NCBI GenBank assembly: GCA_017829005.1 | Contig: JAGAJF010000088.1 | Location: 1 to 49,188 of the forward strand | Length of the DNA stretch: 49,188 nt | From: Oscillospiraceae bacterium | Lineage (GTDB): Bacteria > Bacillota > Clostridia > Oscillospirales > Ruminococcaceae | Reading direction: 5' to 3' | Shown: positions 328 through 19,711 of the stretch, in pieces | Position numbering within the stretch: the stretch's first letter is position 1 | How the letters are laid out: every line of letters starts with the position of its first letter | Position numbers and translations under genes: made by a program | The notes under the pieces: model-generated | The model's input: the letters and a program-made list of their open reading frames with translations, nothing else | Database searches by the model: none | What the model was told of the DNA's origin: nothing

Positions 328-412
328 ATTTGTAACGTTACCGAGCCGTCTGCCTGCTGCCCAAATAAACTATAGAACGAGCGGCTGCAGGCTCAGCCTG
401 CCTCAGCCTGCC
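328..412 (-). repeat. dispersed 3'-UTR element, copy A (after folD)
   Basis: Read in the direction of folD, the element starts directly after the folD stop codon with a GC-rich head containing GCAGGCTGAGCCTGC (self-complementary). It continues through the core CGTTCTATAGTTTATTTGG and ends in GGCTCGGTAACGTTACAAAT, which contains the palindrome GTAACGTTAC. The same core and orientation recur after five other genes in this window. Compared with the other copies it carries an extra tandem GGCTGAGGCA unit at the start of the head. Confidence 0.85.
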
Positions 413-1267
413 TCAGTCTGCACCGTTTTGTTTTTTTGCGGCGGTAAGGGTATTTTTCATAAGCATTGCAATGGTCATAGGACCTACGCCGCCGGGAACG
501 GGGGTTATGTAGCCTGCCTTTTCCTTGCAGGCTTCAAAATCAACGTCTCCGCAGAGCTTGCCCTCTTCGTTGCGGTTCATACCTACGTCAATGACTACGG
601 CTCCCTCCTTGACCATATCGGGAGTTACGAATTTTGCCTTGCCCACAGCGGCAACAAGGATATCCGCTTCGGCGCATATTTCCTTCAGGTTCTTAGTCTT
701 TGAGTGGGTGATGGTAACAGTGCCGTTTTTATGGAGCAGGAGCATTGCCATGGGCTTGCCAACGATATTGCTTCTGCCGATAACAACGCAGTTCTTGCCG
801 CACACGTCCACTCCTGTGTCAGCGATAAGCTCCATTACGCCTGCGGGGGTGCAGGGGAGGAAGGAATAATCGCCTATCATTATGTGTCCCACGTTTTCGG
901 GGTGGAATGCGTCCACGTCCTTTTCGGGGCGGATAGCGTTGATAACGGCGGTCTCGTTTATCTGCTTGGGGAGGGGAAGCTGGACGAGTATGCCGTTTAC
1001 TCTGCTGTCGTTATTGAGCTTGTCAACCAGTTCAAGAAGCTCTGCTTCGGTAGTCTCCTCGGGGAGAGCGTACTCGAATGACTCAAAGCCTACCTCGGCG
1101 CAGGCCTTCTTCTTATTGTTAACATACACTCTTGAAGCGGGGTTATCGCCCACGATAACTACCGCCAGACCTATGGATATGCCCTTTGCTTTAAGCTCCT
1201 CGGCTTCGGCTCTTACCTGAGCCTTTACCTTTGCGGAAACTGCCTTGCCGTCGATAAGATTTGCCAT
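413..1267 (-). CDS. folD: FolD, methylenetetrahydrofolate dehydrogenase/cyclohydrolase
   Basis: This 284-aa protein has the normal length and layout of bifunctional FolD, which oxidises 5,10-methylene-THF with NADP+ and hydrolyses methenyl-THF to 10-formyl-THF for purine and fMet-tRNA synthesis. The catalytic YxxxK motif is present as YVNNK near residue 50, followed by GILVQLPLP near residue 95, the Rossmann segment VVIGRSNIVGKP near 160, and the C-terminal signature PVPGGVGPMTIAML near 258. The ATG is preceded by GGAGG with suitable spacing. It is the last gene of a minus-strand run (ymfF, ymfH, lgt, folD) with short gaps, 48 bp from lgt. A copy of the dispersed element begins right after its stop codon. 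Identity is secure. Confidence 0.97.
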   Translation of the reverse strand: MANLIDGKAVSAKVKAQVRAEAEELKAKGISIGLAVVIVGDNPASRVYVNNKKKACAEVGFESFEYALPEETTEAELLELVDKLNNDSRVNGILVQLPLPKQINETAVINAIRPEKDVDAFHPENVGHIMIGDYSFLPCTPAGVMELIADTGVDVCGKNCVVIGRSNIVGKPMAMLLLHKNGTVTITHSKTKNLKEICAEADILVAAVGKAKFVTPDMVKEGAVVIDVGMNRNEEGKLCGDVDFEACKEKAGYITPVPGGVGPMTIAMLMKNTLTAAKKQNGAD

Positions 1268-1315
1268 TGTTTTTTTCCTCCAATATTATAATTTTGTGAT
1301 TTTTTGTCAGTTGCC

Positions 1316-2338
1316 CTATGCGTTATCTTCCTCGTCATCGTCCGAAACGATCTTCTGCTCAGCTGTGAGCTCCTTATGCTTCTTGGCAGCCTTCCTCTCG
1401 GCCTCTTCCTTTTCCGCATTTGCAGCCGCTTCAAGAATTTTCTTTGACTCCTCGCTGTCACGGTAAAGGGAAACGCCCTTTTTCTTCACTCTCACCCTCA
1501 TTATGATAATAAGGGCAAGTGCGGCAATTGCGCTTATGAGTGCCAGCATCTGCGAGGCTCTCACGCTGCCGATATAAAGGCTGTCCGTTCTGAGTCCTTC
1601 GATAAAAAATCTGCCTAAGCCGTACCAGAATACGTACATACAGAAAACTTCACCGTCGAATTTGCGGTGCTTATGATAAAAATGGAGCAGGATAAATCCC
1701 AGAGCGCACCATATTGACTCATAGAGGAAACAGGGGTGAACAGGAGCATAGGGATTTATCTCCATTCCCTGCGCCGCAAGAGATGCCTGATGATTTGCAA
1801 GATACTGCTGAATTTTGCCCCCCGACATTCCCCAGGGGAGGGTGGTATTGCAGCCGAATGCTTCCTGATTGAAGAAGTTGCCCCATCTGCCGAGAGACTG
1901 ACCGATAAGAAAGCCCATTGCGGCAAGGTCGAGAGTTGGCAGTATTCGGAGCTTTCGCAGCTTTGCGGTGATACAGCCGAATAACAGCGCTCCGATTATT
2001 CCGCCGTAAATGGCAAGTCCGCCGTCCCGTATGGCGAATATCTCCTTGATATCGTGGAAGCTTTCGGCGTGAAGTGCCACATAGTAAAGCCTTGCGCCTA
2101 TGACCGCTCCGATAAGTCCTGCAAATACTGCATCCGTAAGACGGTCGCCGTCAATGCCGAACTCCTTTGTGCGTTTAAAGCAGTATATCATTGCCAGCAG
2201 CATTCCCAGAGCGATAAGCACGCCGTACCACTTTATTGACAGTCCGAAAAGGGAAAAGGCTTCGTTATCAATTTTTATATCAATTCCCAGTCCCGGAAAA
2301 ACGATGTTATCTCCGTAAAGTCTTCCGACTTCGTTCAT
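1316..2338 (-). CDS. lgt: Lgt, prolipoprotein diacylglyceryl transferase
   Basis: Lgt transfers a diacylglyceryl group from phosphatidylglycerol to the lipobox cysteine of prolipoproteins at the membrane. The 340-aa product has about seven hydrophobic segments, the GGLAIYGG motif near residue 106, the family signature GRWGNFFNQEAFG near residue 150 with its conserved Arg, and the second conserved Arg region GLGRFFIEGLRTD near residue 240. A charged Lys/Glu-rich cytoplasmic tail of about 50 residues after the last membrane segment is longer than in classical Lgt. The start has a distant AAAGGA, so initiation may be helped by coupling to ymfH, whose stop lies 27 bp upstream. At least five predicted lipoproteins in this window would be its substrates. 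Confidence 0.96.
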   Translation of the reverse strand: MNEVGRLYGDNIVFPGLGIDIKIDNEAFSLFGLSIKWYGVLIALGMLLAMIYCFKRTKEFGIDGDRLTDAVFAGLIGAVIGARLYYVALHAESFHDIKEIFAIRDGGLAIYGGIIGALLFGCITAKLRKLRILPTLDLAAMGFLIGQSLGRWGNFFNQEAFGCNTTLPWGMSGGKIQQYLANHQASLAAQGMEINPYAPVHPCFLYESIWCALGFILLHFYHKHRKFDGEVFCMYVFWYGLGRFFIEGLRTDSLYIGSVRASQMLALISAIAALALIIIMRVRVKKKGVSLYRDSEESKKILEAAANAEKEEAERKAAKKHKELTAEQKIVSDDDEEDNA

Positions 2339-2365
2339 TTGTGATGTTCAGTCCTTTCGGATAAG

Positions 2366-3652
2366 TTACTTTGTTATGGGACGGATAACGGAAAGGGTGC
2401 TGTTATCCGTATCAAAACGTGTTTTCAGGCAGGCGTTAACGTCCTCGAGGGAAGCATTCGCCACCTCTTCGATAACGGAAAATGCGTCTCCCGTGCCTCT
2501 TAGTCCTGCGTTAATAAGTCCCGTTGCAATTGACTCGGGACTGCCCAGACCCTTTATGAGAGAGCCGTAGTAATGCTTCTTTGCTATCTCAAAGCTTTCG
2601 GGGTCAAAGCCCTCGTTTATGCGTCTCTTTATCTCGTCACCAAGCATTTTGCGAACCTTTTCCGGGTCACGGGATTCGCCGCCGAAAATGGGAACGAAAA
2701 ATCCGTCTCCCGAGAAGGTCTCAAAATAAAATGCGGAATTTATAAGTCCGCCGTCATAGAGGGTCTTGTAAAGCTCCGATGTTTCGCCCATAAGAAGCTC
2801 CTCCGCCATATTGCAGAGAACTGTTTCCCTGACGATATCATCATTGCTCACAGGCTTTGATTTGAAGCCAAGATTGAACATGGGAACGGCTACCTCGAAG
2901 CTCTGCTCCCTGTAGCTGTCCTTAACGGTATCGGGCTCCTCGGGAACTATGGAAACAAGCTCCTTATTCTGGCAGGGCTTTAAAAGCCGGTCGCAGACGG
3001 ACAGTATTTCGTCCTCGTCCACATCTCCCGCAATGGCAAGCACCATATTGTGGAGATTGTAGAAGGTATTATAGCAGCGGTAAAGCAGGTCGGCGTTTAT
3101 CTGTGCAATAGATTCTTCGGTGCCTGCAATATCTATCCTTACGGGGTTTTCGTGGTATATGCCCTCAAGGAGATTGAAAAACACCTTCCAGTCGGGGCTG
3201 TCGTCGTACATTCTTATCTCCTGCCCGATTATTCCCTGCTCCTTGCGGACGGTTTCCTCGGTGAAATAGGGCTTCTGCACGAAATCCAGAAGTATTCTCA
3301 GAGATGGAATGAAATTGTCGGTGCAGGTGAAAAGATAGCAGGTCCTGTCGAATGAGGTGTAGGCATTTCCCGAGGCACCTGTCTGTGCGTAGAGGTCGAA
3401 AACGTCACAGTCCTCGTTCTCGAAAAGCTTATGCTCAAGATAATGGGCAATGCCATTGGGAACAGTGACGAAATCCGGGTCATCGGAGGTCTTGAAGGTG
3501 GTGTTCACCGAGCCGTAGCGGGTGCCGAAAAGGGCGTGCTTAACGCTGTGTCCCTCGGTTTTCCAGATAAGTATCTCAAGTCCGCTGTCGTGAAGCACTC
3601 TTGTGTATTTTTCCCCTGTGCGTACGTTGGAAATTATTTCCTTTTTCATCAC
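2366..3652 (-). CDS. ymfH: YmfH-like M16 zinc peptidase
   Basis: This 428-aa protein belongs to the M16 family (insulinase / processing peptidase). The inverted zinc motif HxxEH is intact as HYLEH near residue 70, with the distal Glu expected about 75 residues later. In Bacillus the YmfF/YmfH pair is linked to maturation of the 5-aminopentanol modification on elongation factor P; that role is known from the family and only inferred here. The frame opens with GTG at 3652, immediately followed by ATG at 3649. AAAGGAGG lies 8 nt before the ATG, so 3649 may be the real start. The upstream ymfF stop codon abuts the GTG, which indicates translational coupling. Confidence 0.88.
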   Translation of the reverse strand: MMKKEIISNVRTGEKYTRVLHDSGLEILIWKTEGHSVKHALFGTRYGSVNTTFKTSDDPDFVTVPNGIAHYLEHKLFENEDCDVFDLYAQTGASGNAYTSFDRTCYLFTCTDNFIPSLRILLDFVQKPYFTEETVRKEQGIIGQEIRMYDDSPDWKVFFNLLEGIYHENPVRIDIAGTEESIAQINADLLYRCYNTFYNLHNMVLAIAGDVDEDEILSVCDRLLKPCQNKELVSIVPEEPDTVKDSYREQSFEVAVPMFNLGFKSKPVSNDDIVRETVLCNMAEELLMGETSELYKTLYDGGLINSAFYFETFSGDGFFVPIFGGESRDPEKVRKMLGDEIKRRINEGFDPESFEIAKKHYYGSLIKGLGSPESIATGLINAGLRGTGDAFSVIEEVANASLEDVNACLKTRFDTDNSTLSVIRPITK

Positions 3653-4927
3653 TCAGTCCTCCTTTCCCGTTAAAACATAGACCGTATCAAGCTTCAGAGA
3701 TCTGCCGTAATCGCAAATCTGCTCTCTTGTAACGGCATTTATCCGCTCAGCCGCTTCCTCGGGAGTGAAGATATCTTCGTCAAGATAGCCGTCGGATACC
3801 CAGTCTGCGGCAGCCTTGGGCGAGTCGAAAACGGATTTTAATGCGCAGGTAAGGAGAAGCTTGGTCTTATCGAGAAGCTCGTCGGTAAATTCGCCATTTG
3901 CCGCCATTTCCACCTGCTTCATTATCTCGTTTTTGGCAGGCTCGATATTTGCGCTTTCAACGCCGCTGTCGATATAAATTACGCCCTTTTTGCGGCTGAC
4001 GCTTGCGGAGCAGTAATAGCAAAGGCTCAGCTTTTCTCTAACGCTCTTGAAGAGCATTGAGAAGGGTGTGCCGCCAAGGAGCGCATTAAAGAGCTTTGAT
4101 ACGGCATAGTCCGTCTGAGTGGTCTTATACGCCATGACCATTTTGCTCTGTGCCACTTCCAGCCTGTCGGTCTTGCTCACAGGCTCGGGCTTTGCGGGAG
4201 AGGTGCTGTTTACAGGCTCGTATATCTCTCCCCTGTCCATAGCAGAAAAGCGGTCGGTTATATGCTTTTCGCACTGGGGGGAAATCTCACAGCCCACGCA
4301 GACTATCTCTATCCTTGCAGTTCTGAGAATGTTCTTATATGCCTTATAGACCTCAGCGGCGGTAAGAGCCATTGCCTCGGAGCGCTCGCCCTTGAGAGCA
4401 ATTCCCGCAGGCTCGCCTTCATAGATTATCCTGCCTGCATTTTTTAGTGCATAGCCTCTTTTATCGTTGATATCTGCGTCTATATCGTCAATAAGCTCCT
4501 GCTTTTTCAGCTGAAACTGCTTTTCGGGGAAGCATTCCTCACCGTTTACAAGCTCGGTCACAGGTTCAAAAAGGCACTCTGTAAGAAGTTCTGCGGTCTG
4601 ACGGGTAATATCCTCCCCATTCAAGGCATATTTATCCGCAATGCAGGAAGCTGCAGCGGTTATCTGCACGCTGTCCGTATGGCGGCTTATGCCCGTATGG
4701 ACGCTTGCTCCGTATAACATTCCCAGCCGCCTGTTAAATTCGGTGACTGTGGGGTACTTTTTGCAGGTGTCCTCTATCATAAAGGCTACAGCGGCGTTTG
4801 CGGCGGCAGTCTCCTTTGTGTGTCTGCACACAAGATTTATGACAATGCCGTTTGTCTTGAATTTTGGGTCTGTAAGGACGGTCAGACCTATCCCTTTTCC
4901 GATCTCAGTTCTTTTCCGATTGGTCAC
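3653..4927 (-). CDS. ymfF: YmfF-like M16 family protein, inactive subunit
   Basis: A 424-aa M16-fold protein paired with the active peptidase gene directly downstream. At the place of the zinc motif it has FMIEDT (near residue 50), which lacks both histidines, so it cannot bind catalytic zinc. The C-terminal half keeps the M16 region with LFNALLGGTPFSMLFKSVRE. M16 enzymes often work as heterodimers of one active and one inactive subunit, and this arrangement fits that. The start is GTG, with GGAG 9 nt upstream. A copy of the dispersed element separates it from the small membrane protein gene upstream. The cellular role (EF-P modification) is taken from the Bacillus homologues. Confidence 0.85.
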   Translation of the reverse strand: MTNRKRTEIGKGIGLTVLTDPKFKTNGIVINLVCRHTKETAAANAAVAFMIEDTCKKYPTVTEFNRRLGMLYGASVHTGISRHTDSVQITAAASCIADKYALNGEDITRQTAELLTECLFEPVTELVNGEECFPEKQFQLKKQELIDDIDADINDKRGYALKNAGRIIYEGEPAGIALKGERSEAMALTAAEVYKAYKNILRTARIEIVCVGCEISPQCEKHITDRFSAMDRGEIYEPVNSTSPAKPEPVSKTDRLEVAQSKMVMAYKTTQTDYAVSKLFNALLGGTPFSMLFKSVREKLSLCYYCSASVSRKKGVIYIDSGVESANIEPAKNEIMKQVEMAANGEFTDELLDKTKLLLTCALKSVFDSPKAAADWVSDGYLDEDIFTPEEAAERINAVTREQICDYGRSLKLDTVYVLTGKED

Positions 4928-4958
4928 TTTATCATCTCCGATATAATTATGGTAATAT

Positions 4959-5056
4959 ATTTGTAACGTTACCGAGCCGCCTGCCTGCCGTTACCGAGCC
5001 GACAGTCTGCCGCCCGAAAAAACTATAGAACGTCTCGCTGCGGGTCGTCACCCGCC
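4959..5056 (-). repeat. dispersed 3'-UTR element, copy B
   Basis: In minus-strand sense it starts with the perfect hairpin GCGGGTGACGACCCGC and continues GCGAGACGTTCTATAGTTT, a GGGCGGCAG segment, and the tail GGCTCGGTAACGTTACAAAT. The GGCTCGGTAACG segment occurs twice in this copy, so it carries an internal partial duplication. It lies 3' of the membrane protein gene at 5110-5532 and ahead of ymfF. It is the only copy with no terminator directly behind it. Confidence 0.85.
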
Positions 5057-5109
5057 TGCATTAAGTATAACACATCTTTCGGGAAATTTCTACTTATTTC
5101 ACAAGTTTT

Positions 5110-5532
5110 TCATCTTAAAAAAAGAAGTATTATCCCCACAACAGCCGCAGCCGCCCCGAATATCCTTACGGGGAGCCTGAGCATTTTTTCGGTGCTTATG
5201 AATTTTTCAAAGCGGTTGTCACCTTTTATCAGTGAGCGGTCGGCAGGCATCTGCTCAATAAGGTACACGCATATCCTGTCTCCCCGCTTGTATTCGCCCC
5301 AAAAACGCTCGGTACAGCGGTGGACGAGAGTGCGCTTCTGCTCTTCTATCCGTATCTGTATCACGGCAGAGAGCTTTCCTTTTTCCTTCGGGGTATCAAG
5401 CACCACCGCCTCGTATTCCTTCGCAAGAGAAATGAAGCTTTGAAGCTCTTCCGTATTTCCGAGGGCTTTTTTATGAGCAAGCACCGATATTATTATTAAA
5501 AGAATACCGAAAATTATGAGAAAATAGGGCAT
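5110..5532 (-). CDS. small membrane protein, DUF3592-like architecture
   Basis: I do not recognise a named family with certainty. The 140-aa product has a hydrophobic N-terminal segment (residues 3-19), a polar middle domain of about 90 residues with a Tyr/Arg-rich beta pattern (HRCTERFWGEYKRGDRICVY), and a second hydrophobic segment at 122-139. Two membrane segments flanking a small soluble domain recall DUF3592-type proteins. It begins 9 bp after the hflX stop codon, so it is very likely cotranscribed with hflX and the HTH gene. Its ribosome binding site is weak and overlaps the end of hflX, which suggests translational coupling. Confidence 0.75.
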   Translation of the reverse strand: MPYFLIIFGILLIIISVLAHKKALGNTEELQSFISLAKEYEAVVLDTPKEKGKLSAVIQIRIEEQKRTLVHRCTERFWGEYKRGDRICVYLIEQMPADRSLIKGDNRFEKFISTEKMLRLPVRIFGAAAAVVGIILLFLR

Positions 5533-5541
5533 AATTTTTCA

Positions 5542-6807: not shown

Positions 6808-6822
6808 ATGTTATCTCCTTTT

Positions 6823-8340: not shown

Positions 8341-8389
8341 ATGTAAAACCCCTCTGTCTGATTATTTTTACTTCATTATACAGCAAAAG

Positions 8390-8420
8390 GGCAGACGATG
8401 GAGCTTATCTATCGTCTGCC
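8390..8420 (-). terminator. intrinsic terminator after the M23 gene
   Basis: A perfect 10-bp stem (GGCAGACGAT with ATCGTCTGCC) with an 11-nt loop lies 25 bp after the stop codon of the M23 hydrolase. On the minus strand it is followed by a short TTTT. A TATAAT-like hexamer for the HTH gene lies just beyond it, so terminator and downstream promoter nearly overlap. Confidence 0.7.
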
Positions 8421-8445
8421 GCAAATTTATAGACCTGAACTTATT

Positions 8446-10444: not shown

Positions 10445-10468
10445 TTACAAAGTGGTTACACTTTGTAA
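10445..10468. promoter_or_regulatory. operator-like 10-bp inverted repeat
   Basis: TTACAAAGTG and CACTTTGTAA form a perfect inverted repeat with a 4-bp centre (GTTA). There is no following T tract, so it is unlikely to be a terminator. It lies between the divergent M23 and chemoreceptor promoters, about 135 bp from the former and 315 bp from the latter. A regulator-binding site is the simplest reading, without direct support. Confidence 0.4.
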
Positions 10469-10783
10469 TAATTATAACTCAACTAACGAAAAAATCAACC
10501 CGATTTTGTTATTTCCGTCACTTTTGACAGTGCTTTCGGCATATTAAACAATATGATTTGAAAATAGCAGAACGATTTTAGTAAATATTTTGTCGGCGGC
10601 GGTCGGATTTCATTTAATCTTAACATTTCTTTTGTGTAATTTTACACGGGCATTTTACGGGGAAATATCGCATTCAAGCTCTTTGTAACGTTTTCATAGT
10701 CAAAATGCGGCTTTATCCGCTGTAATGTTTTACAGCCCGGAGCGGGGGCGAAAAATAATTATCTACATTTTATAAAAAATATG

Positions 10784-10812
10784 TTGAAATCTGCGGCAAA
10801 ATATGTTATACT
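10784..10812 (+). promoter_or_regulatory. sigma-A promoter of the chemoreceptor gene
   Basis: TTGAAA and TATACT are separated by exactly 17 bp. The predicted start near 10819 leaves a leader of only about 50 nt with AAAGGA at 10855, which leaves no room for a riboswitch. Confidence 0.8.
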
Positions 10813-10869
10813 ATAACATAAATATACGCAAGCAGAATTTGCAATAAAAATAATAAAGGAATGTGAAAT

Positions 10870-12870
10870 ATGAACGGCTCAAAAAAATCGGCGGGTCTTA
10901 TCAGATCTATTATTATTTCGGTGGTCATTACCATTGCTGTCGCTCTTACCCTTATATCTGTTATCGGCTTCGCATTCTCATATACAAGGACGAAAAACGG
11001 AGTTCAGTCATCGGCTGAGCAGTCTATTACCATTTACAGGGAGAAGATAGATGCGTGGCTTTCGGAGCAGGCTACCTTCTGCCGTGCGCAGGCGAATGCG
11101 GCGGGAAACCTTGTCCCCGGTGCAGGCAACCGCAGGTATAACGACAAGCTTCTTGACTCGGCTATGACCCTTAACGACGCTCTTCTTGACTGCTATACCG
11201 CATATAGCGACACCGCTCTTTATATGGCTGTCACCGACACCTCGACCCTCCCCGAGGGCTTTGACGCCACCACAAGAGGCTGGTACAAGGACGCTTTCAA
11301 TTCAGGCTCGACTATTTTCACCGCACCTTATATCGACACTGCTACAGGCGCTATGATAATCACCGTTGCTTCACCAATTTACGAAAACGGCAATGCTGTG
11401 GGCGTTTTCGGCTGTGATATCACCCTTGACTACATAATGGAGCTGGCAAGCGAAATGAAGCTTACCGAGAACGGCGTCCCCGTACTCATTGACGGTGACG
11501 GAAACATTATGCTCCACGGAAATGAAGCCCTCAGCCCGAAGATAGAAGGCGGAAACGCTGTTATCACCTCTGCTGCCGACGCGGGGGGAGATTATGAGGA
11601 AGTTCTCTCACAGCTTTCCGACGGCGTTTATCTGGACATTAACAAGGACTCTGACGGCTCTTCTAAATATTTCATTTTCAGCCGCCTTTCCTCTGCCGAC
11701 TGGACCCTTGGCTATGTATGCCCCAAAAATGACATTAACGGCTCTCTGAACGGTCTTGCGGTCGTTTATGCTATACTTACACTCGTTTTCCTTGCAGGCG
11801 GCATGGCTGTTGTAATAAGCGTTATCAAGGTAAGTGTGAAGCCCCTCAAGAAAATAAGCGCTGTTGCCGAGGATATTGCGGCAGGAAATCTTTCCGCAAG
11901 CTTTGACTACAGTTCAAATGATGATATCGGTATCCTTTGCTCGAATTTTGCCCGCTGCACCGATACCACAAGACGCTACATCTCCGATATTTCCGAAAAG
12001 CTTGACCGCCTTGCCAAGGGAGATTTCACCGTAAACGTCACCGAGGAATACATCGGCGATTTTGCTCCCATAAAGGAGTCTCTCACGAATATTATCACAT
12101 CTATGCGAAATACTCTTAATAACATCGAGGTGGCTTCCGGTCAGGTGAATATGGGCGCCGCAAATGTGGCTATGTCCTCTACTCGTCTTGCCGAGGGCGT
12201 TTATGATCAGACGGAAAACCTCAAAAAGCTCAACTCGGATATGTCCGTTATCATCGAAAAGGTGAAGGACAGCGACAAAAACGCCTGTGAAGCAAGGCAG
12301 CTTGCCGAGGGTGCAAGGGTCAAGCTGGAGGAGAGCAACCGCGAGATGAACAAGCTTCTTGCGGCTATGAGCGAGATATCCGAAATGAGTGCCGAGACCG
12401 CAAAGATAGTCAAGACTATTGACGATATCGCATTCCAGACAAATATCCTTGCCCTCAACGCTTCCGTTGAGGCGGCAAGAGCAGGTGCGGCAGGAAAGGG
12501 CTTCACCGTTGTTGCGGACGAGGTAAGAAATCTTGCAGGCAAATCCGCCGAAGCTGCAAACCGCACTTCCAAGCTTATAAATCAGACCACCGAAGCCGTT
12601 GCGGCAGGTGCGGCTCTGGCTGATTCAACCGCCAAGGCGCTTTCGGAAGCTGTTGCCGATACCGCCAGAGTGGATGAGAACATCGGCAGGATATCCGATA
12701 CCGCAAGGGAGCAGAGTGAGTTTATGGACAGCGTTTTCCACGGAATAAACGCTATTTCCGATGTTGTAAACACCACTGCCGACACTGCTCAGTCGGGCGC
12801 AGCTTCCAGCGAGGAGCTGAGCGGTCAGGCTTCCATGCTCAAGGATCTTATTTCCGAATTCAAGCTGTAA
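10870..12870 (+). CDS. methyl-accepting chemotaxis protein with Cache sensor
   Basis: The 666-aa protein has a membrane segment at about residues 13-36, a periplasmic-side double Cache-like sensor domain (about 40-300, with GWYKDAF and [12 protein letters not shown]), and a second membrane segment at about 300-325. A HAMP domain ([19 protein letters not shown]) with a second HAMP-like unit follows, and a long signalling coiled coil to the end. The highly conserved hairpin tip is intact ([20 protein letters not shown], then [16 protein letters not shown]), so it should engage CheA/CheW. No che or flagellar genes are in the window, so the output is unknown. Transcription comes from its own promoter. 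The gene is followed by element copy C and an intrinsic terminator. Confidence 0.94.
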
Positions 12871-12968
12871 GCAGAGTGAGCAGGGCTGAAGCGGGCTCAG
12901 ACCATAACCGCTCGTTCTGTAGTTTATTTGGACGGCAGGCAGCCCGACAGCAATACAAATATGTTACC
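12871..12968 (+). repeat. dispersed 3'-UTR element, copy C (after the chemoreceptor)
   Basis: It starts right after the TAA of the chemoreceptor gene. The head is diverged (GGGCTGAAGCGGGCTCAG). The core reads CCGCTCGTTCTGTAGTTTAT, then GGACGGCAGGCAGCC, and the tail ATACAAATATGTTACC. The orientation relative to the upstream gene is the same as in the other copies. An intrinsic terminator begins 14 bp after it. Confidence 0.75.
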
Positions 12969-12981
12969 TATGATCTTTGTG

Positions 12982-13012
12982 GGGCAGGAAGCCGTTTCCT
13001 GCCCTTTATTTT
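12982..13012 (+). terminator. intrinsic terminator between chemoreceptor and GNAT genes
   Basis: The 9-bp stem GGGCAGGAA / TTCCTGCCC with a 5-nt loop is followed by TTTATTTT. The GNAT ribosome binding site AAGGAGG starts immediately after the T tract, so transcripts from the chemoreceptor promoter must read through this hairpin to express the acetyltransferase. Confidence 0.85.
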
Positions 13013-13026
13013 AAGGAGGAGAGCAG

Positions 13027-13803
13027 ATGATAATCCGAAGCGAAATGGAGCTTGCGGCGGCAAAGCAGCTGTCTGTTGACCTGAACTGCTCTCCCGAGGA
13101 CCTTTTCAAATCCGAAAATACCGTTACAATACCAAAAAACAACGATGGCAGGCGGCTTTTTACCGATGAACCGCCTCTTTTTCGGGCTGCTTCCATGGGA
13201 ATGGGTGCGGTCATAGCCGCCGCATACGCTGTGACCCCTTATGCAAAGCTGCTTGCGGAGCAGAGGGACGGTGCGGAGATATTTGAAGCTGCTGCCGTTT
13301 CTGCTCTTAACAGGGAGCTTTTCACCCACGGCTGCTGTATCGGGCATCAGAGCCAGTATTATCTCCCGAAAACGCCTTACAGAAGCGGTGCAAGGCACGA
13401 GGGGTATTCCCTGAGGGTTTTCGAGGGGACGGAGATAAGCGAGCTTTACTCCTGTGAGGGCTTTTCAAATGCTCTTTTGTATAGAAACGAGGGCGCAAGG
13501 CGGGACATTTTAGCCGTTTGTGCCATTAACGGCAGGCGGATAATGGGCATTGCGGGGGCATCAAATGACAGCCCCGTTATGGCTCAGATAGGCATAGACG
13601 TGCTGCCCGAATTCCGGGGAATGGGCGTGGGTGCGGCTCTTGTTTCAGCCTGCGCTGCCGAGCTTCTTGCGGCGGGATATATCCCATATTACGGCACCTG
13701 GAGCGGAAATATCATCTCCCAGCGGCTGGCGGCTAAATGCGGTTTTTTCCCTGCATGGTGCGAGATGTCTTCGGTAAAGCTTCCCGATGTAAGAAAACAG
13801 TAA
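13027..13803 (+). CDS. GNAT family N-acetyltransferase
   Basis: The 258-aa protein has a poorly conserved N-terminal half and a C-terminal GNAT fold (about residues 130-250). The acetyl-CoA pyrophosphate-binding motif is seen as PEFRGMGVGAALVSACAAEL near residue 197, and NIISQRLAAKCGF near 235 is the typical motif B region. The substrate cannot be deduced. AAGGAGG lies well placed before the ATG. I see no promoter between the upstream terminator and this gene, so expression may depend on readthrough from the chemoreceptor gene. A strong terminator follows its stop codon. Confidence 0.87.
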   Translation: MIIRSEMELAAAKQLSVDLNCSPEDLFKSENTVTIPKNNDGRRLFTDEPPLFRAASMGMGAVIAAAYAVTPYAKLLAEQRDGAEIFEAAAVSALNRELFTHGCCIGHQSQYYLPKTPYRSGARHEGYSLRVFEGTEISELYSCEGFSNALLYRNEGARRDILAVCAINGRRIMGIAGASNDSPVMAQIGIDVLPEFRGMGVGAALVSACAAELLAAGYIPYYGTWSGNIISQRLAAKCGFFPAWCEMSSVKLPDVRKQ

Positions 13804-13843
13804 CAGCCTGTCTGCGTTTAGAATTGCAGACAGGCTGTTTTGC
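13802..13843 (+). terminator. intrinsic terminator after the GNAT gene
   Basis: A perfect 14-bp stem (AACAGCCTGTCTGC at 13802-13815 with GCAGACAGGCTGTT at 13826-13839) with a 10-nt loop overlaps the stop codon and ends in TTTT. Confidence 0.9.
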
Positions 13844-13858
13844 GTAAGGTTCTTTTCT

Positions 13859-13927
13859 TCCGTTACCGAGCCGTATGTTTATCGCCCCAAACAAACTATA
13901 GAACGAGTGGCTACAGGCTCAGCCTGT
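13859..13927 (-). repeat. dispersed 3'-UTR element, copy D (overlaps a gene end)
   Basis: In minus-strand sense it begins with the self-complementary head ACAGGCTGAGCCTGT, continues CCACTCGTTCTATAGTTTGT and GGGGCG, and ends in ACGGCTCGGTAACGG. Unlike the other copies, the head is inside the coding frame: the last residues of the small membrane protein (YRLSL-stop) are encoded by it. Confidence 0.8.
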
Positions 13928-14126
13928 AATCCTTGTCCATTACCGTAATAATAATGTTGCCGCCCTCCGAGCTTATGTCAAAAAGGGTCATTTTGTCGCT
14001 GCTCATTGCGTTGTGACAGTTGACGGTCACAATGGCGCTGCCCACCGCAAGTGCGGCGGCGGAAATGATGAAAATGCTTATGATGCTGAGATAATATTCG
14101 GCTTTCCTTTTTCTTTCGGAGGTCAT
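13911..14126 (-). CDS. small single-pass membrane protein downstream of spoIIP
   Basis: The 71-aa product has a basic N-terminus (MTSERKRKAEYY), one membrane segment at about residues 13-36 and a short polar C-terminal part. I do not recognise a family. It starts 2 bp after the spoIIP stop codon, with AAAGGA overlapping the end of spoIIP, so it is almost certainly cotranscribed and translationally coupled. A role in the forespore engulfment stage is inference from position only. Its last five residues come from a copy of the dispersed element, so the original C-terminus may have been replaced or extended by insertion. Confidence 0.65.
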   Translation of the reverse strand: MTSERKRKAEYYLSIISIFIISAAALAVGSAIVTVNCHNAMSSDKMTLFDISSEGGNIIITVMDKDYRLSL

Positions 14127-14128
14127 TT

Positions 14129-15427
14129 TTATGATCGTTCCTTTCCTATGGATATAAGTGCGTCTGCAATTCCTTCGGCGGACAGCTCGCCTGCATATAC
14201 CGCCTGCTCTAAGCTGTTTCCGTGACCGCCTACCTCGATAAGCAGGGAGCCTGTGGTAAGGTCCTGATTGTACTTCCTGTAATCGTAAAGCACGGGGCGG
14301 GTAAGCCCCTTGTACCTGCTTTCCATATGCTGCTCGAAAAGGGAGGCGGTGCGGAGATTTTTCATACAGTCGGGCATTCCCATGGTGCCGTCGTCACAGC
14401 CGCATATTATCATTACCTGGGCACAGCTTTTTCCGCCTATATTTACGGTGGGGGCGATTATCTCGCCGCTTTCCCGCTCTATAGCGTCACGGTGAACGTC
14501 AAGGACTACCTTTATTGAAGGATATTTTTCCAGAATTGCCGTTACAGTCTCCCTGCTTCGGTCATAGGAGCCGTTGTAGGAAGGATAATCGTGGACGGTG
14601 GTGTCGTGATATGTGCGTATGCCCCGCTCCTCGAAAACCCTTGCCATTGCATCGCCTACAACTGCCATATTCCTGCTGCTGTCGGTGGTGCGGCAGATGT
14701 ATTCGGGGTCATAGAAGCCGCTGTCATCGGGCTGGTAGCTTTCGGTGGTGTGGGTGTGCATAATGAGTATCTGAGGCTCGTCCTCGGGTGCGTTAAGCAC
14801 TATCCCGAAATCGGGGGCAAGGAGGGCTTCGGAGTATATATTTTCGGAGGAAAGAGATGTTACATTGCGAATTTGTCCCCCGAGAGGCAGGTCTATGTAG
14901 TTATCTCCCGTTCCCGGCTCATAGCAAAGGGGTGTGACAACGCCGCTCTGAGAAAAGCTGTCGGGGAAGGGGAGTGGGTCATCTGTGCTTTCGGGGGGCG
15001 GAAGAAAATCCTCCACGATCTTCTCTTCATTGGCGGAGGAGGGCATTCGGCGGCTGCCCCGTGACAGCATAAGCACATCTTCCTCGCCCATTTTTTTTGT
15101 ATCAATAATAGTATTGCCGGGCGGCGGCGTATCATTCACCTTTGGGGCAGAATTTTCGGGCGCTTTTTGGGTAAAATACTTTATGATATCATCTCCGCTC
15201 AGCTGCTCGACAAGTGCAGAAAGCCTTGATACCTCATAAGCACCTTCCGAAATAATATCCGCCGCAGGGAGAACTGTTGCTTCGGGAAAGCTCCACAGGG
15301 CAAGGAAAATGATGCCTCCTGCACAGAAAAGTCCCGAACGGGAAGCTTTTCGGCGCGTGGGTGTTTTCGGCGGCGTTTCGGCGTGATAGATTCGAAGCTC
15401 GGAGAAATTGTTTTCTTTATCGTTCAT
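14129..15427 (-). CDS. spoIIP: SpoIIP, stage II sporulation protein P
   Basis: SpoIIP is a membrane-anchored N-acetylmuramoyl-L-alanine amidase/endopeptidase that, with SpoIID and SpoIIM, thins septal peptidoglycan during engulfment of the forespore. The 432-aa protein has one membrane segment at about residues 32-50, a low-complexity linker, and the catalytic domain from about 215 on. It shows the family motifs LIMHTHTTESY near 224, VVLDVHRDA near 308 and EVGGHGNS near 397, which carry the zinc-binding His and catalytic Glu residues. The upstream sequence CATACTAT resembles a sigma-E -10 element, consistent with mother-cell expression. Its presence argues that the organism belongs to a spore-forming lineage. 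Confidence 0.93.
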   Translation of the reverse strand: MNDKENNFSELRIYHAETPPKTPTRRKASRSGLFCAGGIIFLALWSFPEATVLPAADIISEGAYEVSRLSALVEQLSGDDIIKYFTQKAPENSAPKVNDTPPPGNTIIDTKKMGEEDVLMLSRGSRRMPSSANEEKIVEDFLPPPESTDDPLPFPDSFSQSGVVTPLCYEPGTGDNYIDLPLGGQIRNVTSLSSENIYSEALLAPDFGIVLNAPEDEPQILIMHTHTTESYQPDDSGFYDPEYICRTTDSSRNMAVVGDAMARVFEERGIRTYHDTTVHDYPSYNGSYDRSRETVTAILEKYPSIKVVLDVHRDAIERESGEIIAPTVNIGGKSCAQVMIICGCDDGTMGMPDCMKNLRTASLFEQHMESRYKGLTRPVLYDYRKYNQDLTTGSLLIEVGGHGNSLEQAVYAGELSAEGIADALISIGKERS

Positions 15428-15461
15428 ATTATCAGTCCTTCCGAAGAAATGTTACTATAAT

Positions 15462-15469
15462 ATAGTATG
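15462..15469 (-). promoter_or_regulatory. possible sigma-E -10 element of spoIIP
   Basis: Reading toward spoIIP, CATACTAT is close to the sigma-E -10 consensus CATACAxT. A weak -35 candidate (GAATACC) lies about 14 bp upstream. spoIIP is a known sigma-E gene in Bacillus. The assignment rests on eight bases plus that knowledge. Confidence 0.4.
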
Positions 15470-15568
15470 AAAAAACTTCTTCGGGTATTCCTCGGACACG
15501 ATGCCAAAACGAAGGCAAGCCAAAATGGGGGATATATTTTAACAATTTGTAAAACCTCACAAATCCCC

Positions 15569-15597
15569 TTGACATTTTTCGCACGGTATGATATACT
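15569..15597 (+). promoter_or_regulatory. sigma-A promoter of the tRNA-Thr/tRNA-Tyr unit
   Basis: TTGACA and TATACT with a 17-bp spacer; the predicted start is near 15604, about 30 nt before tRNA-Thr. A near-consensus promoter is expected for stable RNA genes. Confidence 0.88.
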
Positions 15598-15633
15598 TTA
15601 ATAGTCGCTTGAGAGAGCGCACAGGAAACTCAA

Positions 15634-15709
15634 GCTGGTGTAGCTCAGTTGGTAGAGCAGCTGATTTGTAATCAGCAGGTCGGGGGTTCAAGTCCGTCCA
15701 CCAGCTCCA
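15634..15709 (+). tRNA. tRNA-Thr (anticodon TGT)
   Basis: The acceptor stem GCTGGTG/CACCAGC, a D-arm with AGCTCAGTTGGTAGAGC, the anticodon stem-loop GCTGA-TTTGTAA-TCAGC with anticodon TGT, and the T-arm GGGGGTTCAAGTCC are all present. The 3' CCA is encoded. No variable-arm anomaly is seen. Confidence 0.97.
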
Positions 15710-15713
15710 TTAT

Positions 15714-15797
15714 GGAAGAGTTCCCGAGTGGCCAAAGGGGGCAGACTGTAAATCTGTTGCTTCGGCTTCGGTGGTTCGAATCCACCCTCTTCCACCA
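15714..15797 (+). tRNA. tRNA-Tyr (anticodon GTA)
   Basis: The acceptor stem GGAAGAG/CTCTTCC, the anticodon loop CTGTAAA with anticodon GTA, a long variable arm (TTGCTTCGGCTTCGG region) typical of bacterial class II tRNA-Tyr, the T-arm GGTTCGAATCC and an encoded CCA are visible. It lies 4 bp after tRNA-Thr and is cotranscribed with it. Confidence 0.97.
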
Positions 15798-15804
15798 GTA
15801 AATT

Positions 15805-15835
15805 GCCTTGCAGGTTTTTCCTGCAAGGCTTTTTT
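15805..15835 (+). terminator. intrinsic terminator of the tRNA unit
   Basis: The 10-bp stem GCCTTGCAGG / CCTGCAAGGC with a TTTTT loop is followed by six T residues, 8 bp after the tRNA-Tyr CCA end. Confidence 0.92.
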
Positions 15836-15962
15836 ATGCAAAGACGTATTTGTATGGGTTTTATAGAAATTTTTGTAAGAGTTTAATATTATCGGGCATA
15901 ATATCCATACGGTTTAGACGGATTTTTAATAAAAATTTTCTAAAAATGAAAGGAAAATCCTT

Positions 15963-17783
15963 ATGGTAAGAAGCGATCTGCGAAATATTGCAATCATCGC
16001 CCACGTTGACCACGGAAAGACCACCCTTGTTGACGAAATGCTCAAGCAGGGCGGTGCTTTCAGAGAAAATCAGGAGGTGGAGGACAGAGTAATGGACTCC
16101 AACGACATTGAGCGTGAAAGAGGCATTACCATTCTCGCAAAGAATACCTCCGTTAAGTACAACGGCGTTAAGATAAACATCATTGACACCCCGGGCCACG
16201 CCGATTTCGGCGGTGAGGTGGAGCGTGTCCTCAAAATGGTTGACGGCGTTCTTCTCCTCGTTGACGCTGCAGAGGGACCTATGCCCCAGACCCGCTTCGT
16301 GCTTTCAAAGGCTCTTGAGCTGGGTCACAAGATAATCATTGTTGTTAACAAGATAGACCGTCCCGACGCTCGTCTTGACGAGATAGGCGACGAGGTGCTT
16401 GAGCTTCTTCTTGACCTTGATGCAAACGATGACCAGCTTGAAAGCCCTATCCTTTTCTGCTCGGGTCGTGCAGGCACCTGCTCCATCAGCCAGTACGAGG
16501 CTGGAACAGACCTGAAGCCCCTTTTTGACACCATTCTCGACTATATCCCTGCTCCCGAGGGCGACGATGAGGGTCCTATGCAGATGCTCATCTCCTCAAT
16601 CGACTACAACGATTATGTGGGCAGAACGGGTATCGGACGTGTTGAAAGAGGCGTTATCAAGGTAAATCAGCCTGTTATCGTAGGCGATTACCACGAGACA
16701 AAGAAGCCTTATAACAGCAAAATTGTTACAGTAAGCCAGATTGAGGGTCTCGGAAAGCAGAATGTTGACGAGGCAAGGGTGGGCGATATCGTATGGATAT
16801 CGGGTATCGAGAACATCACCATCGGTGACACTCTCTGCGCTGCGGATAATTATGAGCCGCTGCCCTTTGTGAAAATTTCCGAGCCTACTGTTGAAATGAC
16901 CTTCTCCGTTAATGACAGCCCCTTTGCAGGCAGAGAGGGCAAGTTCGTTACCTCCCGTCAGCTTCGTGAGAGACTTTTCAAGGAAGTGCTGAGAGACGTT
17001 TCCCTGAGAGTTTCCGAGACCGAGAATACCGACGCATTCAGAGTATGCGGACGCGGTGAGATGCACCTGTCCATTCTCATTGAGAATATGAGAAGAGAGG
17101 GCTATGAGCTTGGCGTTTCCACACCGAGAGTTCTTATGAAGGAAATTGACGGCGTAATGTGCGAGCCTATGGAAAGGCTTGTTATCGACGTTCCCGAGGA
17201 CTGCACAGGCTCTGTTATGGAGAAAATGGGCACCAGAAAGGGTGAGCTGCAGACAATGCACCCCCAGGGTAGCCGTATGAGAATGGAATTTATCATTCCC
17301 GCAAGAGGTCTTTTCGGCTACAAGAGCGAGTTCCTCACCGACACCAAGGGCGAGGGTGTTATGAGCAGCATTTTCGATTCCTATCAGCCCTACAAGGGTG
17401 ATATCCCCAGAAGAAACACAGGCTCCCTTATTTCCTTTGAGACGGGCGAGGCCGTTACCTACGGTCTGTTTAACGCACAGGAGAGAGGTTCACTCTTTAT
17501 CGGTGCAGGCACTCCCGTTTACGAGGGAATGGTTGTGGGCGCATCTCCCAAGGTGGAGGATCTTGTGGTTAATGTCTGCAAGAAAAAGCACCTGACAAAC
17601 ACCCGTGCCAGCGGTTCGGACGACGCACTCCGCCTTGTTCCTCCCAGAAAGCTCTCTCTTGAGGACAGCCTTGAGTTCATTGCCGATGACGAGCTGCTTG
17701 AGGTTACTCCCAAGTCTATCAGAATAAGAAAGCGTATCCTTGACAATGCGCTGAGAGCCAAGACAAAGGCTAAAGAAAAATAA
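15963..17783 (+). CDS. typA: TypA/BipA translational GTPase
   Basis: TypA/BipA is a ribosome-binding GTPase related to EF-G, needed for efficient 50S assembly and stress or cold growth. The 606-aa protein has the usual length and the GTPase motifs AHVDHGKTT (G1, residues 13-21), [15 protein letters not shown] (G2 region), [14 protein letters not shown] (G3) and NKIDRPDAR (G4). EF-G-like domains III and V and the TypA-specific C-terminal domain with GTRKGEL and [17 protein letters not shown] follow. GAAAGGA lies 8 nt before the ATG. A weak promoter (TTGTAA-18-CATAAT) is possible near 15873-15902. Element copy E and an intrinsic terminator follow. Confidence 0.97.
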
Positions 17784-17867
17784 GGCGGGTGACGACCCGC
17801 GGCGAGACGTTCTATAGTTTGTTGGGGCGGCAAGCTGACGGCTCGGTTACTATACAAATGCGTTACC
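17784..17867 (+). repeat. dispersed 3'-UTR element, copy E (after typA)
   Basis: It starts on the base after the typA stop codon: GGCGGGTGACGACCCGC (perfect hairpin), then GGCGAGACGTTCTATAGTTT, GGGGCGGCA, GACGGCTCGGTTAC and the tail ATACAAATGCGTTACC. The first 40 bases are nearly identical to copy B, which lies 13 kb away on the other strand. A terminator hairpin begins 15 bp after it. Confidence 0.87.
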
Positions 17868-17882
17868 TTTGAAAAGAAATAT

Positions 17883-17915
17883 TCGGCTGATGTTAATTCG
17901 TCAGCCGATTTTTTT
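17883..17915 (+). terminator. intrinsic terminator after typA
   Basis: The 8-bp stem TCGGCTGA / TCAGCCGA with a 10-nt loop is followed by seven T residues. Confidence 0.87.
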
Positions 17916-17936
17916 GCGAAAAATCTTACATTTCAC

Positions 17937-17968
17937 TTGCAATTCATAGCAAATTAGTGTATTATAAT
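17937..17968 (+). promoter_or_regulatory. probable promoter of the TtcA-like gene
   Basis: A perfect TATAAT at 17963 has TTGCAA 20 bp upstream, a longer spacer than usual. The predicted start near 17975 lies after the farthest upstream ATG of the frame (17971), which supports 18034 as the true translation start. Confidence 0.5.
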
Positions 17969-18033
17969 ATATGCGGACTAATAATGCTTTACGAAACATT
18001 GTCCGGACAATATCTATCATTGGAGTGGAAAAT

Positions 18034-18801
18034 ATGCAGAGCGTTCAGAGAATGCTGGGATATATGAGAAAGGCTATTCAGGAATTTGATATGATCGAAA
18101 ACGGAGATCATATCGCTGTGGGAGTGTCGGGGGGCAAGGACAGTATGGTGCTGCTTCTGGGACTTATGGAGCTGAGACGGTTTATCGGCATTGACTACAA
18201 GCTCACTGCCATCACCCTTGACCCTATGTTTCACGGGGAAAGCACCGATTACAGCCCCGTTGCGGAGCTTTGCGAGAAGGGGGGCGTGGAGTACAAGCTT
18301 ATTCCCACCGATATCGGACAGGTGGTCTTTGATGTGCTGAAAGAGCCGAACCCCTGCAGTCTGTGCGCTAAAATGAGGCGTGGTGCGCTCCACGAAGCCA
18401 CAAAGGCAGCGGGCTGCAACAAGCTTGCTTTGGGTCACAACTATGATGATGCTGTGGAAACATTTATGATGAATCTTTTTAACGAGGGCAGGATAGGCTG
18501 CTTTGCCCCTGTAAGCTACCTGTCAAGGCGTGATCTGACGGTGATAAGACCTATGGTGCTTGCTCCCGAGAGAGATGTTATCCGCTGTGCCGAGGGTGCG
18601 GAGCTGCCAATTGTTAAGAGCAAGTGTCCTGCGGCGGGTCACACCTATCGTCAGACCACCAAGGAGCTTCTCAAGGAGCTGGAAAAGACCAACAGAGGCG
18701 TTACCGCCCGCATTTTCGGTGCAATGAGGAGGGCGAAGGTCGATGGCTGGGCTGGCAAGGAGTTTGCGGATTATGTGAGCAAGACTTCGGTGAGGAGCTG
18801 A
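18034..18801 (+). CDS. TtcA-like tRNA thiolation / PP-loop ATPase
   Basis: From the ATG at 18034 (GGAG 8 nt upstream) the protein is 255 aa. It has an N-ATP-pyrophosphatase PP-loop SGGKDS at residues 32-37, a CxxC pair (CSLC) near residue 108, and a third cysteine in KSKCPAAGHT near 195. This is the pattern of the TtcA family, which adenylates and thiolates cytidine 32 in tRNA using an iron-sulfur cluster. The frame is open further upstream to an ATG at 17971, but that start would overlap the promoter and lacks a ribosome binding site. Related PP-loop enzymes (TilS, MnmA-like) differ in the cysteine arrangement, so TtcA-type is preferred. Confidence 0.88.
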   Translation: MQSVQRMLGYMRKAIQEFDMIENGDHIAVGVSGGKDSMVLLLGLMELRRFIGIDYKLTAITLDPMFHGESTDYSPVAELCEKGGVEYKLIPTDIGQVVFDVLKEPNPCSLCAKMRRGALHEATKAAGCNKLALGHNYDDAVETFMMNLFNEGRIGCFAPVSYLSRRDLTVIRPMVLAPERDVIRCAEGAELPIVKSKCPAAGHTYRQTTKELLKELEKTNRGVTARIFGAMRRAKVDGWAGKEFADYVSKTSVRS

Positions 18802-18843
18802 ATGTGTCTTACTTCCAATAATTGCTCATATCCAAATCGTAAC

Positions 18844-18872
18844 TTGACTTATTGCGACTACAATGATATAAT
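18844..18872 (+). promoter_or_regulatory. sigma-A promoter of the PASTA protein gene
   Basis: TTGACT and TATAAT are separated by exactly 17 bp; the predicted start near 18879 lies about 30 nt before the ATG at 18911. Confidence 0.85.
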
Positions 18873-18910
18873 TCTATCAGACATTCCATGAGTGAAACGG
18901 AGATGAGCAA

Positions 18911-19549
18911 ATGGGCTTTTGCGGCACTCAGTATATTAACGAGATGAGGTTCTGGTTTCTGTTGGCACTTATTTTCTTGGCGGTGCTTGTAATAAGTATC
19001 CTTGAGATATTTCTCAGAAGGAAGAACAAAAAGAAGATAGCCCCGGCTGTAATTTCCGCTTCTTTATCGGCACTGATATTGATCCCCGTAACAGCAATCA
19101 TTGTGATTTTGGTGCTTCCTCCGTATCCTCCGCCTCGGTATGTTGACCCGATGGTGGATCTCACGGGATACGATTATAATTATTGCAAAACATACTATGC
19201 CGAATATTTTGACCTTTCGGTCTCGGGGGAAGAGTATTCCAACGAATATCCAAAGGGAACGATAATCAGGCACGAGCCTCGTGCGGGAGCGCACATAATA
19301 AGGGGAAGCACCGAGGTAAGGTGCGTTGTGAGCAAGGGTGTGCGGCAGATCGTTGTATGCAATGTGATAGCCCTTAGCGCCGAAACAGCGGAGAAGATGT
19401 TAGCGGCAAACGAACTTGAATATGAGATAAAATATGTGCCTTCGGAGGAATACGAAGAAGGTATTGTAATATCTACCGAGCCCGAACGGAATACGGAGGT
19501 GCCTGCAGGCTCAACAGTCACCCTTTATGTAAGCTCGGGAAAAGAATAA
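18911..19549 (+). CDS. PASTA-domain membrane protein
   Basis: The 212-aa protein has two hydrophobic segments (about residues 13-34 and 45-68) and an extracellular part with two PASTA-like repeats. The first contains YDLSVSG-type spacing with EYPKGTIIRHEPRAGAHIIR. The second contains AEKMLAANELEYEIKY with EGIVISTEPERNTEVPAGST, ending in VTLYVSSGK. PASTA domains bind peptidoglycan fragments and normally occur on PknB kinases or penicillin-binding proteins. Here there is no kinase or transpeptidase domain, so this is a stand-alone sensor or wall-binding protein of unknown partner. GGAG lies 8 nt before the ATG. It has its own promoter and terminator. Confidence 0.85.
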   Translation: MGFCGTQYINEMRFWFLLALIFLAVLVISILEIFLRRKNKKKIAPAVISASLSALILIPVTAIIVILVLPPYPPPRYVDPMVDLTGYDYNYCKTYYAEYFDLSVSGEEYSNEYPKGTIIRHEPRAGAHIIRGSTEVRCVVSKGVRQIVVCNVIALSAETAEKMLAANELEYEIKYVPSEEYEEGIVISTEPERNTEVPAGSTVTLYVSSGKE

Positions 19550-19567
19550 TGCGTATAGGCATATGAA

Positions 19568-19599
19568 AACCTCCCCCGGGATTTCCCGGGGGAGGTTTT
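19568..19599. terminator. bidirectional intrinsic terminator (PASTA gene / mcrC)
   Basis: A GC-rich perfect inverted repeat (AACCTCCCCCGGGA / TCCCGGGGGAGGTT) with T residues on the plus side and A residues on the minus side can end both the PASTA transcript and the convergent mcrBC transcript. Confidence 0.9.
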
Positions 19600-19659
19600 G
19601 TGTATTCAAGCTTTATAATTTATCAGATTGATACAAAATCTATCGGCGCGGAGACAAAG

Positions 19660-19711
19660 CCGACAATCCACACAAACGCACAGCGCGACCTCGCCGCGGG
19701 TCGTCACCCGC
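19660..19711 (-). repeat. dispersed 3'-UTR element, copy F (after mcrC, degenerate core)
   Basis: The head GCGGGTGACGACCCGC plus GGCGAG is intact and begins at the last base of the mcrC TAG stop codon. The core beyond it is strongly diverged (CTGTGCGTTTGTGTGG in place of CTATAGTTTGTTGGGG). Its orientation relative to mcrC matches the other copies, and a terminator lies further downstream. Confidence 0.6.

Follow-up and report, generated by a model that had tools for sequence, protein, structure and literature searches.

A probably mobile repeat superfamily with exchangeable hairpin heads, often located at stop codons, in a Ruminococcaceae genus

The repetitive extragenic palindromic (REP) sequences, together with their composites, the bacterial interspersed mosaic elements (BIMEs) and the REP doublets forming hairpins (REPINs), are short hairpins that lie mostly 3′ of genes, sometimes supply the stop codon, form inverted dimers and vary in stem sequence with the pairing kept. 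According to the accessible part of PMC3733652, REP families are found mainly downstream of coding regions, in many cases with less than 20 bp separating them from the 3′ end, and a TAG stop is often provided by the ends of GTAG REPs. The repeat analyzed here was noticed as six copies in a 49,188-nt stretch of Oscillospiraceae bacterium DNA (assembly GCA_017829005.1, contig JAGAJF010000088.1, positions 1 to 49,188; hereafter the window). It shares the above traits with the REPs, but its hairpin is only the head of a 66-100 bp unit, its contact with the stop codon is exact in many copies, and whole units occur in tandem arrays. The preliminary description of the window held that REP-like or MITE repeats are not normally restricted to one orientation relative to genes; as a premise that REPs lack a position bias, this is shown to be wrong by the published families. 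Empty sites in relatives, the existence of several body families and tandem growth together indicate that the repeat is very probably mobile and non-autonomous.

Two further systems invite comparison. For E. coli, ribosome stalling is associated with REPs located no more than 15 nt from a stop codon, as cited in PMC5082802 (accessible part), and the hairpin directly after the stop is a feature common to both; in the present repeat the stop can also lie within the hairpin loop, as in GCAGGC-TGA-GCCTGC or, in genome G006, GAGGGG-TAG-CCCCTC, and any similar effect on the ribosome would be by analogy. The BOX elements of Streptococcus, as far as the accessible part of PMC3049150 describes them, likewise have a modular build, tandem inner units and an enrichment between convergent genes, and differ in module order and in the hairpin head, the comparison being one of architecture, not sequence. 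The terms Firmicutes, Clostridi- and Ruminococcus are not mentioned in the main text of PMC3733652, as accessible, and, among the matches listed, the literature searched, which leaves most subscription journals outside its coverage, holds no description of the repeat. At the Rfam gathering threshold, the repeat is unmatched in the window, where the only matches are two tRNAs and an L10 ribosomal leader (26755-26903, above gathering).

The unit runs in the order head hairpin, six-base linker, CGTTCTRTARTTT, a GGGCGGCAG-like stretch and GGCTCGGTAACG, followed in many copies by ATACAAATA, and measures about 66 bp up to GGCTCGGTAACG and about 100 bp including the tail. The body defines families A, B and C. 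CGTT and GGCTCGGTAACG are common to A and C, the latter having a head as in A plus GGCTCGGTAACG around a different middle. Five of the six window copies belong to family A, while copy 6 has only the head in common, and its family B body recurs at C16, C54, C58 and C154. All six copies are present at the places and on the strands first reported. The order then given as common to all of them, a head followed by CGTTCTATAGTTT, a GGGCGGCAG-like segment and a CGGTAACG/ACAAAT-like tail, is retained, partly altered, by copies 1, 2, 4 and 5; copy 3 is degenerate and copy 6 carries another body.

Evidence for mobility comes from the orthologous sites of the six copies, S1-S6. The panel comprised 41 genomes, i.e., the own genome (G000; a draft of 2.88 Mb in 163 contigs, 93.7% complete), 19 others of the same genus (a genus set of 20 with the own) and 21 further ones. 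Copy 1 (327..412, minus strand), with two partial heads, the head GCAGGCTGAGCCTGC at 387-401 and a body at 327-380, is located directly behind the TGA stop (413-415) of a folD-type gene; at S1 the TGA is followed by the element in G000 and stands without it in G010. Copy 3 (12871..12968, plus strand; 29.6 bits, head starting with GCAGAGTGAGCAGGGC, tail AGCAATACAAAT) directly follows the TAA (12868-12870) of an MCP-type gene, and the same TAA lacks the element in G010, G004, G002, G013 and G012. Copy 5 (17784..17867, plus strand; head GCGGGTGACGACCCGC at 17785-17800, body at 17807-17859) directly follows the TAA (17781-17783) of a typA/bipA-type gene, a stop behind which G000, G010 and G013 each have a different head and G002, G004 and G012 have none. 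The proposal that heads are exchangeable is borne out here, the GCGGGT head at 17784 corresponding in the G010 orthologue to a GCGGG fragment plus a GCAGGC head. In copy 4 (13854..13927, minus strand; head ACAGGCTGAGCCTGT) the end of the head provides the TAG stop (13911-13913) of gene 13911-14126, so that at S4 the stop lies inside the head in G000; G010 has a head remnant directly after TAA, and G002, G013 and G004 are empty. Copy 6 (19660..19711, minus strand; head GCGGGTGACGACCCGC at 19696-19711, the same as in copies 2 and 5) creates with its junction the TAG stop of an McrBC-type gene (19711-21063), and at S6 the stop is met by a head in both G000 and G010, G004 having a plain TAA. Copy 2 (4958..5056, minus strand; head GCGGGTGACGACCCGC at 5040-5055, body at 4988-5033, partial second unit at 4958-4987) is found 53-54 nt past the stop of gene 5110-5532 and 30 nt ahead of the next gene; S2, between TTAA and AATATAT, is also filled in G010 and is empty in G004, G013, G002 and G012. 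The first description placed all six copies 3′ of a stop codon, one overlapping it and one beginning 50 bp later; by our own gene calls copies 1, 3 and 5 follow the stop directly, copies 4 and 6 overlap it, and copy 2 is the one at a distance.

Judged by the empty sites of the relatives, four of the six window insertions occurred exactly at the stop codon, and one more is no further than three codons from it. Erosion of an intervening gap by deletion is disfavored at S3 and S5, since a native-like spacer before the terminator persists at both, which argues for insertion. The same stop can be occupied by different families, A in G000 and C in G010 at C20:24855, and A in G000 and G010 and B in G004 at C112:49315. 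Between the two alternatives first offered, a transcribed RNA element and a mobile element with polarized insertion, the latter is better supported because relatives carry empty sites.

The placement relative to genes was quantified with gene ends from our own gene caller, using chains of copies on one strand. G000 and G010 together have 89 such chains, of which 13 without a recognizable head were excluded from the position counts. Polarity is a bias rather than a rule. In G000, 31 of the 42 headed chains with a neighbor lie on the 3′ side of a gene and 11 on the 5′ side (43 in total, one without neighbor; p 0.003); the corresponding numbers for G010 are 23 and 9 of 32 (33 in total, one without neighbor; p 0.02). 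The family thus does have the polarized placement at gene 3′ ends proposed for it, while the strict single orientation fails on the 11 chains facing a 5′ end and on the tail-to-tail pairs, so that copies in both orientations, named beforehand as telling against the proposal, do in part occur.

Closer to the gene end, the contact is sharp. G000 has 19 heads and G010 has 12 at 0-60 nt behind a stop, and of these 10 and 5, respectively, are at 0-2 nt; in five more chains of each genome the reading frame continues into the head and ends 7-10 nt within it. In the wider set, from which 80 further loci were excluded, 22 of 142 leading heads lie 0-2 nt after a stop compared to 35 of 2820 random intergenic points of random orientation (Fisher p 1.6e-15), and another 15 overlap the gene end (-20 to -1 nt). 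Terminator stems provide a control for hairpins in general; among 337 element-free genes examined, our finder saw a terminator in 41, and in 2 of these the stem starts 0-1 nt behind the stop. A TAA-type triplet was rejected as the target because TAA, TAG or TGA precedes just 3 of the 105 heads that neither lie 0-2 nt after a stop nor overlap a gene end. Since heads meet stops exactly and favor no triplet at other places, the target would seem to be set by position, a conclusion that we consider evenly balanced.

Other edges are contacted as well. Of 42 heads facing a gene start, 15 lie within 60 nt, and 10 of these are 16-23 nt upstream of the start codon, where by reading they adjoin the Shine-Dalgarno region; one head immediately adjoins the CCA with which a tRNA-Pro gene ends (C67; L098, 4498-4574). 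Additional stretches gave a mixed outcome: G006 partly repeats the pattern, with TAA|CAGCG, TAA|CGGCG, TAG or TGA inside the head and heads on terminator stems, G112 has one stop contact and one head 17 nt before a start, and G126 mostly departs from it. A body-less head, possibly a remnant, was also noted at a stop codon (TA|G) in G000 (L150, C24:17999-18013). Terminators were rejected as a general target, the excess being weak (10 of 90 leading heads away from stops follow a stem within 8 nt vs 35 of 705 controls). At L322, L323, L311 and L272, TCAGCG/CGCTGA heads immediately adjoin a terminator-like stem, no T tract separating the two.

Several observations weigh against an insertion directed at gene ends. 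As many as 105 of the 142 leading heads neither lie 0-2 nt after a stop nor overlap a gene end, and 64 have no correctly oriented stop from -20 to +60 nt. None of the 14 headed chains of the AATTTG type with a neighbor in G000 and G010 is within 10 nt of a stop. Copy 2 at S2 is away from any stop, the head at S4 in G000 begins about three codons ahead of the old stop, and at S5 G006 has a family C core downstream of the stop in the opposite orientation. Outside the genus, G126 has a single clean head (TA|G) at a stop, and most of its copies keep a left flank of their own. The stop-distance counts are limited by the gene caller, the copies of G000 and G010 are partly orthologous, which makes their counts non-independent, and no mobilizing enzyme was found, Y1_Tnp being absent from G010, G006 and the 93.7% complete draft of G000.

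The main rival explanation, which we regard as possible but on the unlikely side, is that insertion is nearly random and that purifying selection clears coding, promoter and terminator DNA, sparing the short stretch after the stop. Not one of the 105 copies that G000 and G010 contain was flagged inside a called gene, and the accessible parts of PMC3733652 and PMC3049150 report a bias toward 3′ or convergent positions for REPs and pneumococcal repeats, respectively. Leading heads are moreover enriched 3-12 nt (15/142 vs 110/2820 random points) and 13-60 nt (26/142 vs 316/2820) after stops, as tolerance would predict. Tolerance yields closeness, however, not contact, and 19 of the 34 heads within 0-20 nt are at 0-2 nt (p 1.8e-8 vs a flat spread). 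A further proposal is that the host has adopted the repeat as a 3′-untranslated region (3′-UTR) RNA element, heads being kept by stops for mRNA stability or for the tuning of termination. Such a role would agree with the stems GGCTGAGCC and GGTTGAACC found at one and the same orthologous locus, with the hairpins downstream of five window copies and with the 5 of 92 family A copies in which both stem sides are altered and the pairing is kept; single-side changes are nonetheless commoner (about 10 of 92), the sites are patchy among close relatives, and copies are also found at gene 5′ ends and tail-to-tail. The consensus RNA fold of 27 head-plus-body copies, in which the two head lengths misalign, gives 6 pairs and zero double changes. 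We consider the RNA-element proposal improbable.

An ordinary REP/REPIN mobilized by a REP-associated tyrosine transposase (RAYT, Y1) would account for the palindromic form, the 3′ bias, the inverted pairs and the repeat-supplied stop codon, and it gains something from G012 and G018, which have Y1_Tnp along with 24 and 14 superfamily tail matches. These are the only 2 of the 20 genus genomes with Y1_Tnp, however, while G010 and G006 lack it despite 21 and 85 tail matches, and the four Y1 loci contain neither the GGCTCGGTAACG core nor a GCAGGC head. By eye, the head is preceded by host sequence and followed by GGCGAG or AGCCAC, without the constant GTAG or CGTC tag of REPs; in family A copies with a GCGGGT head, the opposite strand does read CGTC, though at a distance of five bases from the hairpin, where those with a GCAGGC head have CGAG. 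Among the REP hallmarks, the location mainly 3′ of genes and the inverted dimers are thus present; a palindrome of 20-40 bp in many copies has a partial counterpart in the head hairpin of about 15-17 nt, with 30 and 32 exact copies of two types, which is part of a longer unit; and the tag and, in these draft genomes, a linked RAYT were not found; for this reason we do not file the repeat as a REP, even though it may work like one. Mobilization as an ordinary RAYT-driven REP seems to us very improbable, and hardly less so does the idea that the element is joined at RNA 3′ ends or at ribosome boundaries. The latter is prompted by the fact that stop codons (heads before, as TA|G inside, or after them), the tRNA CCA end and terminator stems are all RNA ends or ribosome stops. 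Since contacts also occur upstream of start codons, its RNA-end version does not fit and the ribosome-boundary version would be needed; if true, insertion would be coupled to translation termination or proceed via an RNA intermediate, with the enzyme coming from outside this genome. No reverse transcriptase (RVT_1, E ≤ 0.001) was found in the 93.7% complete G000. Bacterial group IIC introns show polarized insertion beside terminators; the present repeat is far shorter, and its genome has no RVT_1. The gene enclosed by the copies that face each other with their tails at C67 was considered as an autonomous parent and rejected, its product, putatively a DHH-type protein, not looking like a transposase, although no search aimed at it was made.

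The head is the part of the unit in which pairing, rather than sequence, is largely kept, with modest covariation within G000 and G010. Two exact head types dominate in the own genome (30 and 32 copies, hairpin of about 15-17 nt), and the stems observed include GCAGGC/GCCTGC, GCGGGT/ACCCGC, TCAGCG/CGCTGA, TCGGGC/GCCCGA, GAAGGC/GCCTTC, CCGGGC/GCCCGG and GTCGGC/GCCGAC. With the same 80 further loci excluded, 131 of 158 unique anchors contain a perfectly paired hairpin of 5 bp or more in the head segment, and a 6-bp perfect hairpin with a loop of 3-4 is present in 120 of the 158 head segments, compared to 861 of 20000 random 50-mers and 53 of 3160 shuffled segments; both counts overstate the pairing, because the list was compiled by searching for hairpins. 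G000 and G010 have 105 family A copies, and the fixed-position stem test covers 92 of them, the other 13 being too short. Of the 92, 71 have one of the two main stems and 16 are changed on a single side or degenerate, the remaining 5 being the two-sided changes mentioned above. As for the structural selection first suspected in the heads, some stems are indeed retained while both of their sides have changed.

Larger assemblies of the unit also occur. The array at C26:56066-56446 (L101) has six units with a 66-bp period, with three units at C159 and two at C140; in arrays the next head comes directly after GTAACG, and tail-like sequence is found only behind the last unit. The gene before the L101 array ends with its stop inside a partial first head, and five superfamily-tail matches spaced about 101 bp apart (G012:C101:2847-3268) form another tandem array. 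Tail-to-tail pairs, i.e., inverted dimers, occur at C54, C136, C24 and C115, and long forms with an AATTTG-type left flank join such composites. With regard to the terminal inverted repeats and target-site duplications of MITEs, the AATTTG-flanked composites look inverted, and by reading only, no clear target-site duplication was seen at S2, S3 or S5. Body arms pair better with their own tails than with permuted ones, only 13 of 5000 permutations doing equally well in a set of 68 copies left from 73 after de-duplication. This pairing reaches -12 kcal/mol or better in only 17 of the 68, which makes the second hairpin a trait of the long forms and not of all copies.

A sequence-only body model built from 26 copies gives 66 family A matches in the own genome (E up to 0.1). 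With stricter filters, G000 has 64, followed by G010 (39), G013 (10), G004 (5), G002 (2) and G012 (2); family A is confined to these six among the 41 genomes, every one of them within the genus. A 20-nt tail pattern (up to 3 mismatches) has 49 matches in the genome, more than chance would give, since the pattern reversed has 0. The superfamily pattern TTTGYGGCTCGGTAACG, with one mismatch allowed, reaches further, being present in 13 of the 20 genus genomes and in 7 of 148 family-wide genomes (own counted), which belong to seven different genera. More copies probably exist than were counted, because contigs stop within copies, as seen at L088, L090, L107, L103 and L136, where the assembly breaks at the repeat.

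Downstream of the window copies, terminator-like hairpins were located after copy 3 (12981..13005, plus strand, scan), copy 5 (17883..17908, plus strand, scan and own finder) and copy 6 (approximately 19570..19598, minus strand, own finder). A hairpin with T tracts on both strands follows copy 1 (205..242, no strand assigned; coordinates by reading, part in the scan), and another, found by reading only and with a weak T tract on the minus strand, follows copy 4 (13802..13839, no strand assigned). The five terminators announced earlier accordingly have hairpins to match, none following copy 2, and that of copy 4 is the least secure. Because these terminators lie downstream of five window copies, the head is probably transcribed as the first hairpin of the 3′ UTR. 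Genome-wide, of 61 gene ends that carry the element, a strict finder places a terminator behind it at only 12 and ahead of it at 2, with none at 47, which makes no case for transcription through the element in general; genes without the element have a terminator within 80 nt in 41 of 337 cases.

Taken as a whole, we give about an even chance to the picture of a REP-like, non-autonomous mobile superfamily that enters, or survives, exactly at the edges of translated units. Its units would consist of a hairpin head, free in sequence with its pairing kept, a linker and a family-defining body, and would be inserted by an enzyme acting in trans. The exactness would arise at the insertion step, the target being set by position and not by a triplet such as TAA. 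Once inserted, the head would be transcribed as the first structure after, or around, the stop codon and, by analogy with what is reported for E. coli REP hairpins, should affect translation termination and 3′-end decay. If this is true, mobile repeats that find gene ends through position, without recognizing a sequence, would represent a novel mode of target selection, and translation termination could be altered in many unrelated genes by the hairpin located on their stop codons.

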